This document shows, in pieces, positions 24,308-26,900 of a DNA stretch of 32,250 bases. Source of the stretch: an uncultured Bacillota bacterium (GTDB lineage Bacteria > Bacillota > Clostridia > Oscillospirales > Oscillospiraceae). The stretch lies in NCBI GenBank assembly GCA_947172355.1, contig CAMWBA010000015.1, positions 1 to 32,250 on the forward strand, in the 5' to 3' direction. Made by a program: the position numbers and the translations under genes. Numbering within the stretch: position 1 is the first letter of the stretch; each line of letters opens with the position of its first letter. Below the pieces are notes generated by a model. It saw nothing but the letters and a program-made list of their open reading frames with translations, did no database searches and had not been told where the DNA came from.

Positions 24308-24745
24308 ATGAAAATTGAAAATCATGTGACGTTGGAGTTCCCCAGCCGCTCCGCCAACGAGGGTTTTGCCCGGACGGCGGCGGCCTGCTTTGCTGCCCAG
24401 CTGGACCCCACCTTAGAGGAGGTCAATGATATTAAAACCGCCGTCAGCGAGGCGGTAACAAACGCCATCGTCCACGCGTATCCAGATATTTTGGGAAAAA
24501 TCGTCCTCAGACTGCGCATTCGAGAGGACCATGCTCTGGAAATCACAGTTAAGGACTGGGGGGTGGGCATCGCCGACGTAGACCAGGCCAGAACACCTCT
24601 GTTTACCACCGGCAGTGAGGAGCGCTCCGGCATGGGCTTTACCATCATGGAGAGCTTTATGGATACCTTGAAGGTTCGTTCCGCCCCCGGCAGGGGCACC
24701 ACCGTCACCATGGTGCGGAGGATTGCCCGCCGGGCTGGCCGGTGA
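24308..24745 (+). CDS. spoIIAB: Anti-sigma F factor, serine kinase
   Basis: A 145-residue GHKL-type ATPase. The N box is SEAVTNAIVHAYPD, the G1 box VKDWGVGIADVDQA and the G2 region TGSEERSGMGFTIMESFMD. It binds and holds sigma-F and phosphorylates SpoIIAA. ATG 24308 follows AAAGGA; the longer open frame from 24176 covers the spacer hairpin and is rejected. Its stop overlaps the sigF start by four bases (GTGA). Confidence 0.96.
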   Translation: MKIENHVTLEFPSRSANEGFARTAAACFAAQLDPTLEEVNDIKTAVSEAVTNAIVHAYPDILGKIVLRLRIREDHALEITVKDWGVGIADVDQARTPLFTTGSEERSGMGFTIMESFMDTLKVRSAPGRGTTVTMVRRIARRAGR

Positions 24746-25455
24746 GCGCCCCGCTGTCCGGCCCGGATCTGTTTCAGGCCGCCCGGGAGGGGGACAGCGC
24801 CGCCTGTGAGCAGGTACTGTTAGAAAACAATGGTCTGATCTGGAGCGTAGTGCGCCGGTACTACGGGCGCGGCGTGGAGCCGGACGATCTGTACCAGCTG
24901 GGCTGTCTGGGGTTTCTCAAAGCGGTCCAGGGCTTTGACCCCGATTTCGGCACCCAGTTCTCCACCTACGCCGTCCCCAAAATCGCCGGGGAAATACGTC
25001 GATTTCTTCGGGACGACGGCCCTGTCAAGGTGAGCCGCGGACTAAAAGAGCGCGGCTCAGGCGTCCGTGCCGCCCGAGCCCGGCTGTCCGCCGTCCTGGG
25101 GCGGGAGCCCACCTTGTCCGAACTGGCGGAGGACACCGGTCTGTCTCCCGAAGACATCGCCGCCGCTGAGACAGCCATCGAACCGGTGGTATCCCTCCAG
25201 ACGGAGACGGGGACGGACGGCCTCACCCTGGAAGGAATGCTCACCACCGGGAACGAGGAAGAACATATGGTGGAACGGCTCACCCTGCGCACCGCCATCA
25301 CCGCCCTGCCCGACCGGGAACAGCAGGTTCTGCTCCTGCGCTATTACCGGGGGATGACCCAAACCAACACCGCCCGGATCTTAGGGGTGTCCCAGGTGCA
25401 GGTGTCCCGCCTGGAGCGGCGGGCGCTGGACAAACTGCGCAAAGAGCTGGTGTAG
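24742..25455 (+). CDS. sigF: RNA polymerase sigma-F factor
   Basis: A 237-residue sporulation sigma factor of the SigB/F/G group. Region 2 is IWSVVRRYYGRGVEPDDLYQ with LGCLGFLKAVQGFDPDFG, region 3 is around GREPTLSELAEDTGLSPEDI, and the region 4 helix-turn-helix is MTQTNTARILGVSQVQVSRL. It starts at GTG 24742, inside the spoIIAB stop, so translation is coupled. It directs early forespore transcription. The operon ends in a cluster of hairpins. Confidence 0.96.
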   Translation: MSAPLSGPDLFQAAREGDSAACEQVLLENNGLIWSVVRRYYGRGVEPDDLYQLGCLGFLKAVQGFDPDFGTQFSTYAVPKIAGEIRRFLRDDGPVKVSRGLKERGSGVRAARARLSAVLGREPTLSELAEDTGLSPEDIAAAETAIEPVVSLQTETGTDGLTLEGMLTTGNEEEHMVERLTLRTAITALPDREQQVLLLRYYRGMTQTNTARILGVSQVQVSRLERRALDKLRKELV

Positions 25456-25460
25456 TGTGG

Positions 25461-25705
25461 TTGGGCTCCGCCCAAACCTGCCAGGGCTCTGCCCTGGACC
25501 CAGCAGGGGCTTTGCCCCTGCACCCCACCGCCCTTTGAAAAGGGCGGCCCGAAACTTTTTCCTTTTTTCATCGGGCCGCAAATGCAAGGAGCACTGCCCG
25601 GCAGGGCGGTATTCCCCCAAGAAGATGCAAGGACCGCCGCCCATTGGGCGGCATCCCCCCAAAAGATACAAACGGACCGCCGTCCGGTTGGGCGGCGGTC
25701 CGTTT
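25461..25705. repeat. Cluster of six to eight strong hairpins between sigF and the CofE-like gene
   Basis: Successive perfect inverted repeats: 25461-25475 (TTGGGC stem), 25481-25497 (CCAGGGC stem), 25503-25521 (GCAGGGGC stem), 25528-25547 (CCGCCCTT stem), 25545-25578 (CGGCCCGA stem, competing with the previous one), 25636-25652 (GCCGCCC stem) and 25670-25705 (13 bp stem). The first three share a pattern of a G-run, CTCC, CTCT or CTTT, and a C-run. The fourth is followed by a T-rich stretch (25556-25568) and can terminate sigF. The last, with TTTGTATCTTTT on the minus strand, can terminate the gene at 25707. Confidence 0.8.
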
Positions 25706-25706
25706 C

Positions 25707-26900
25707 TCACTCTGTGGTGTAGTTGTCAAAATAGCCTTGGATAAAGACCACCGGAGTGCCCTTGTCCCCAGAGCCGGAGGTCAAATCGCACAGGGAACCG
25801 ATCAGATCGGTGAGCCGGCGGGGGGTAGTGCCCTCCGATACCATCTGCCCCACCAGGTCCCCGTCCTTCTTTTGTATGCGGTCCTTGATGGCCTCCTTCA
25901 ACGCCTCGCCGGACAGGCTGGCGAAGTCGTTGTCGGCCAAATATTTCAGTTTCAGCTCATTTGGGGTGCCCTCCAGGCCGGCGGTGTAGGCGGGGGAGAC
26001 CACCGGGTCGGCCAGCTCCCAAATTTTTCCCACCGGGTCCTTAAACGCGCCGTCGCCGTAGACCATCACCTCCACATGCTTGCCGGTCTCCTCCAGCAGC
26101 CTCTTCTGGATGGCCTCCACCAGCCCCTGGCAGTCCCGTGGGAACAGCTTCACCCGGTCCTCGGTGGCCTTGTTGGAGCCCAGCAGGCCGTACTTCTCGT
26201 TGCAGCCGCTGCCGTTTACCGGGGAGGTCAGAATCTCGTCCAGTCCGAGAACGGTCACCGCCCCGGCGGTCCGGAGCAGCCGCTTGGTGCGCTGGCGGGT
26301 ATGGATGTCGCAGCACAGCACGTGCTTGGTGTAGGGCAGGATGGCCCGAGGATCGTTGGCGAAGAGGATCTCCACCTCTGCCCCGCAGTCCTCAATCAGC
26401 TCCTGGTAATAGGCCACATAGTCCACCCCGGTGAATGGGTGCTTCTCATAGCCGAACAGCTCCCGGTACTGTTCCAGGGTGAGGACATCCTTGTAGGGGT
26501 CCACCCCCTTCTCGTCCACGGCATCCAGGCTGATGAGGTGATTGCCCACCTCGTCGGAGGGGTAGCTGAGCATGAGGACGATCTTTTTGCACCCCTTGGC
26601 GATGCCCCGCAGGCAGATGGCAAAGCGGTTGCGGCTGAGGATGGGGAAAATCACCCCCACCGTCCCGCCGCCCAGGCTGTCCCGGACGTCGGCGGCAATG
26701 TCGTCCACGGCGGCGTAGTTGCCCTGGGCCCGGGCCACGATGGCCTCGGTCATGGCCACGATATCCCGGTCCCGGATGGAAAAGCCGTCCTCCTTGGCGG
26801 CCTCCAACAGAGAATTGGTCACAATCTCCACCAAATCGTCCCCGCTGCGGATGATGGGGGTGCGGATGCCCCGGGATACGGTACCGACCATACGGCTCAT
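25707..26900 (-). CDS. CofE-like (F420:glutamate ligase fold) protein of unknown role
   Basis: A 397-residue protein whose N-terminal half matches the coenzyme F420-0:L-glutamate ligase family: RGIRTPIIRSGDDLVEIV, then DRDIVAMTEAIVARAQGNY. Further conserved-looking parts are IFPILSRNRFAICLRGIAKG, TSPVNGSGCNEKYGLLGSNK and MVYGDGAFKDPVGKIWELAD. Archaeal CofE is about 250 residues, so this is a longer Firmicutes-type branch. Clostridia of this kind are not known to make F420, and no other F420 gene is here, so the substrate is open; a gamma-glutamyl ligase for another cofactor is one option. GAGGAG precedes ATG 26900. Confidence 0.75.
   Translation of the reverse strand: MSRMVGTVSRGIRTPIIRSGDDLVEIVTNSLLEAAKEDGFSIRDRDIVAMTEAIVARAQGNYAAVDDIAADVRDSLGGGTVGVIFPILSRNRFAICLRGIAKGCKKIVLMLSYPSDEVGNHLISLDAVDEKGVDPYKDVLTLEQYRELFGYEKHPFTGVDYVAYYQELIEDCGAEVEILFANDPRAILPYTKHVLCCDIHTRQRTKRLLRTAGAVTVLGLDEILTSPVNGSGCNEKYGLLGSNKATEDRVKLFPRDCQGLVEAIQKRLLEETGKHVEVMVYGDGAFKDPVGKIWELADPVVSPAYTAGLEGTPNELKLKYLADNDFASLSGEALKEAIKDRIQKKDGDLVGQMVSEGTTPRRLTDLIGSLCDLTSGSGDKGTPVVFIQGYFDNYTTE

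Follow-up and report, generated by a model that had tools for sequence, protein, structure and literature searches.

Organization of the region downstream of sigF

The gap between sigF and the convergent gene behind it consists of two unrelated parts, and we consider it likely that the left part (25461-25559) is a copy of a dispersed, non-coding, REP-like repeat of Clostridia without a sigF-specific role, and that the right part (25582-25705) is a separate terminator block. The repeat is dispersed in multiple copies in relatives, is modular in design, occurs in both orientations, is present or absent at one and the same gene junction, and shows covariation of its stems.

In the window (the whole stretch of 32,250 nt analyzed here), sigF (24742-25455, plus strand; Pfam Sigma70_r2, r3 and r4) is the last gene of spoIIAA-spoIIAB-sigF, and the two genes preceding it contain the Pfam domains STAS and HATPase_c_2. 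A gene of the F420-0:gamma-glutamyl ligase family (CofE-type, F420_ligase; 25707-26900, minus strand; Pfam PF01996, E = 1.9e-59) is convergent to sigF, and the GC-rich region 25461-25705 is the gap between the 3' end of sigF and this gene. The original prediction described a dense array of hairpins here. Indeed, this 245-nt stretch is the densest of the window for hairpins, and its hairpins with arms of at least 6 bp have a summed arm length of 30 against a mean of 3.6 in shuffled sequences, a total reached in 0 of 500 dinucleotide-preserving shuffles. Correspondingly, the fold energy was -144.2 kcal/mol compared with -112.0 ± 4.9 kcal/mol for shuffled sequences (z = -6.6), and none of 200 dinucleotide-preserving shuffles was as low. 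Easy folding of GC-rich intergenic DNA by chance has practically no probability as an explanation: the region is GC-rich, but the shuffles, together with the homologous copies at other loci, rule out a chance origin. As for the predicted minimum of six perfect stems, we found five perfect hairpins, whose arms are 6-8 bp long, and one alternative, overlapping 9-bp stem, whereas the longest stem (25670-25705) is slightly imperfect, with 15 of 16 positions paired.

The left part starts with three GGGCTYYGCCC hairpins on the plus strand, H1 (TTGGGCTCCGCCCAA, 25461-25475, 6-bp stem), H2 (CCAGGGCTCTGCCCTGG, 25481-25497, 7-bp stem) and H3 (GCAGGGGCTTTGCCCCTGC, 25503-25521, 8-bp stem), which are all perfect and are joined by ACC-linkers. 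These are followed on the same strand by a terminal hairpin, H4 (CCGCCCTTTGAAAAGGGCGG, 25528-25547, perfect and covarying 8-bp stem), which is the conserved module that closes the repeat, and by a tail (CCCGAAACTTTT, 25548-25559) whose conservation was seen by alignment. As had been noticed originally, H1-H3 share a common plan (G-run, CTCC/CTCT/CTTT, C-run), while their outer pairs differ and yet match. The hairpins run head to tail with the ACC tag always on the same side, and the first hairpin of sister-species copies is identical to H1. An alternative stem of 9 bp (GCGGCCCGA/TCGGGCCGC, arms 25544-25552 and 25571-25579) is perfect and overlaps H4, but none of the other copies read showed it. 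A CRISPR array was rejected, as the units differ and the linkers are only 5-6 nt long.

Distribution of the repeat in the genome, genus and class

A search for the family recovered H1-H3 a second time in the window's own genome; this match has 95% identity across 64 nt and runs up to the final base of contig C95. Repeats that interrupt assembly are expected to leave copies at contig ends in this way, and this one is likely to cause contig breaks when short reads are assembled. Of the two copies in the window's own genome, which is assembled in 275 contigs and is 77% complete, one is complete and the other is cut by a contig end; further copies may have been lost at contig ends, and within-genome amplification in this species is presumed from what is seen in its relatives.

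Among sister species, BLAST detected copies in 9 of 60 genomes. A covariance model built from the last G-run hairpin and the terminal hairpin, which matches the window at 25503-25559 (from the start of H3) with 79.8 bits, scored more than 45 bits, a strong match, in 12 of 64 genus genomes, of which G018 and G063 have 14 or more such matches. Across the class, matches were obtained in 9 further genera (9 genomes from 8 additional families), and the 19 candidates scored in two genomes all matched. Many copies per genome were present in G018, G063, G226 and G094. A copy has between 1 and about 4-5 G-run hairpins. The linkers measure 5-6 nt and mostly start with ACC (dominant tags ACCCA, ACCCC and ACCCG), and the same terminal hairpin closes most sister-species copies. 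In other genera, the letters of the terminal stem vary (CAAGCC/GGCTTG, CGACCC/GGGTCG, ATCGCT/AGCGAT), and a TTTGAAA-like center and the AAACTTT tail are mostly kept. Matches of about 30 bits (in G016, G025, G034, G007 and others) were not counted as copies, since those inspected belong to a different hairpin family.

Most of the 41 genus copies are intergenic, and about a dozen overlap a possibly spurious ORF of our crude gene calls. By equally crude ORF picks, the flanking genes are convergent or co-directional and, in a few cases, divergent, and both orientations relative to genes occur; copies are also found within operons and before start codons. No vector was seen, as viral contigs scanned with three patterns contained no match, and phages and plasmids each yielded a single weak match that covered about half of the query. 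The core sequence, when looked for in the text of papers, led only to unrelated papers.

Other repeats were encountered in these searches. A second dispersed family of hairpin pairs (CCACCGGGCTTTGCCCGGCGGCCCTCCCCCCTTTGGCAAGGGGGG) occurs in the genus at three loci, with weak matches in G016, G025, G034, G036, G030 and G007, and G226 contains a longer repeat, roughly 150-200 nt in length and present at least 18 times. The H2-H3 pair is also found, with 90-96% identity and without the terminal module, in MAGs from a different phylum labelled Acetobacteraceae, Rhodospirillales and Alphaproteobacteria (four loci), which may reflect transfer, contamination or convergence.

A relative of SigF is present in all 61 genomes searched, and the array was absent from all 29 other sigF downstream regions read, a few of which are clipped by contig ends. 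The gene after sigF varies among these 29 regions. Thus, while the family is not confined to this locus, its position after sigF was unique among the 30 species compared. It is unlikely that the array serves as a special control element of sigF, and the comparison points to no sigF-specific function.

Presence and absence at a single junction were found in a V-ATPase operon. In G012 and G015, an insert of about 200 nt between V-ATPase genes F and A includes the element, in reverse orientation. The relatives closest to them in that V-ATPase gene (G083, G001 and G066) show nothing but a short leader at this junction, which indicates that the element inserts. A terminator inside the V-ATPase operon would be harmful; therefore, efficient termination by the element is improbable in that orientation. 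The inserts of these two species also contain other palindromes (CTTTTCTTGAAAGAAAAG and GCGTGAAATGCAATTTCACGC), forming a mosaic of repeat types inside the operon.

Covariation and maintenance of the stems

The hairpins had been suggested to be duplicated with compensating changes, and the copies elsewhere bear this out by strong covariation in both the genus and the class. In the 41 genus copies, 98.2% of the pair cells were paired, with 40 double changes compared with 11.2 in shuffled alignments and 3 one-sided changes. Among the window and the matches of other genera (19 matches, 18 distinct), 98.9% were paired, with 79 double changes compared with 23.4 and no one-sided change; selection by the covariance model favours paired stems, and the double-change counts may be inflated by it. 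Moreover, the stem changes are almost exclusively Watson-Crick double changes, and G-U pairs are nearly absent (3.6% in the repeat hairpins versus 9.6% in terminator-like stems of the same loci, a rough control with a marginal difference; Fisher p = 0.044). In G226, an extra 14-bp hairpin is present in 13 repeat copies in seven arm versions, all of which are perfect Watson-Crick stems, and its nearest flanks are near-constant. This hairpin was checked directly, since RNAalifold missed it owing to its absence from some copies.

A functional RNA structure is normally demonstrated by covariation, and RNA stems usually change by passing through G-U pairs. The near absence of G-U pairs therefore suggests a cause at the DNA level, and the arms may be kept complementary by template-switch copying or by selection on the DNA palindrome; selection may also act on RNA hairpins. 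Template-switch copying from arm to arm has been described for RNA genes (PMC8794818). The hairpins maintained in that way resemble those of the repeat in their multi-base compensatory changes that preserve perfect Watson-Crick stems, and differ in that they belong to RNA genes, while we propose the process for dispersed bacterial repeats. The repeat is of interest as a case of abundant and very strongly covarying hairpins that look like dispersed DNA repeats, almost without G-U intermediates. Clostridia genomes with many copies are a natural setting in which to ask whether such covariation can arise from template switching alone, and the versions of the 14-bp hairpin of G226 are well suited to this. 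A stronger proposal, possible but doubtful in our view, is that this Clostridia-wide array family spreads without an HUH/RAYT enzyme and that intrastrand template switching, rather than RNA selection, keeps its stems perfectly Watson-Crick. If true, strong covariation in such repeats would not signify functional RNA.

Comparison with known elements and alternative explanations

REPs in the broad sense are extragenic, palindromic, short and multicopy with a shared consensus (PMC12306157). The repeat is likewise extragenic, palindromic and short with a shared consensus, and its copies are many in G018, G063, G226 and G094 and two, one of them cut by a contig end, in the window's own fragmented genome. 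That it is a classical REP moved in trans by a RAYT/Y1 (HUH) transposase is unlikely. In agreement with the REP and REPIN blueprint, whose tags are GTAG or CGTC (PMC2817692, PMC3733652, PMC3116915), its short, intergenic, multicopy and clustered palindromes share a consensus and have a one-sided conserved tag beside the stem. However, the tag is of the ACCC type (GGGT on the other strand), and neither GTAG nor CGTC was found at the stem foot; the hairpins run head to tail without the alternating orientation of BIMEs; and the repeat has a separate terminal hairpin and an AAACTTT tail. In addition, Y1_Tnp was absent from G226, which is 99% complete and has at least 19 repeat matches, as well as from G365, G048, G018 and G021, and the surroundings of the Y1 genes tested in other genomes gave weak model matches and no strong copy. 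As it has neither these tags nor BIME alternation, and no resident Y1/RAYT transposase, the repeat is most likely an untagged REP-like, non-autonomous repeat DNA. Untagged REP-like families are known in M. tuberculosis, D. radiodurans, Bordetellae, Brucellae and cyanobacteria (PMC3733652). Such stem-loop families are the closest kind, being dispersed, tagless and often located at gene 3' ends (PMC1590033, PMC3733652), and the repeat differs from them by its own sequence, its modular array, in which one to about five hairpins are joined, and its presence in several Clostridia families.

The array might instead be a compound terminator of the convergent sigF and F420-ligase genes, to which we likewise give a low probability. 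Like intrinsic (rho-independent) terminators, it places GC-rich hairpins after a stop codon between convergent genes; the stem at 25670-25705 combines a GC-rich stem with a T-tract and is terminator-like on the minus strand, and very similar terminators sit just 3' of genes in sister genomes. In contrast, H1-H3 have no T-tract behind them and were not called as terminators, and related elements occur within the V-ATPase operon, between co-directional genes in either orientation and before start codons. A structured small RNA or cis-regulatory RNA under RNA-level selection is less probable still. Although the low folding energy and the strong covariation would fit such an RNA, Rfam returned nothing credible at gathering or relaxed thresholds (best CC1840, 30.3 bits against a cut-off of 50), no promoter-like site was found, copies lie in both orientations relative to genes, the 29 sigF relatives are without the array, and the changes include almost no G-U pairs. 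The stable small RNA that had been suggested is therefore unsupported.

We thus prefer a dispersed REP-like repeat, which would spread as DNA without a gene of its own and of which one copy would have landed after sigF with no role specific to that gene. The number of its hairpins would change through tandem duplication or recombination, and the pairing of its arms would be upheld chiefly at the DNA level, through template-switch copying between arms and/or selection on the DNA palindrome. The searches for Y1/RAYT identified no mobilizing enzyme for the repeat, which counts against this explanation, as does the small number of copies in the window's own assembly. Secondarily, the repeat might also influence the stability of mRNA 3' ends.

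The probable terminator block

The right block (25582-25705) comprises three units 41-43 nt apart with similar borders and related stems, as indicated by three direct repeats of this spacing. Unit 1 (25582-25624, minus strand, about 42 nt) forms an imperfect hairpin, unit 2 (25625-25665, minus strand) contains the perfect 7-bp hairpin GCCGCCCATTGGGCGGC at 25636-25652, and unit 3 (25670-25705) has the stem of 15 out of 16 pairs. As a whole, the block has no second copy in the genus, and it is most likely a separate terminator hairpin duplicated locally in tandem. Its last unit, called as a terminator on the minus strand, is a plausible two-way terminator that would end transcription of both sigF and the F420-ligase gene. 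The original prediction had reckoned that two of the hairpins were needed as terminators; it was right that terminators alone do not explain the array, but a single two-way hairpin may suffice for both genes. In many sister species, a near-constant terminator close to ACCGCCCCCCTTTGGCGGAAGGGGGGCGGT lies 3' of sigF, where it occupies the place of the window's hairpin array.
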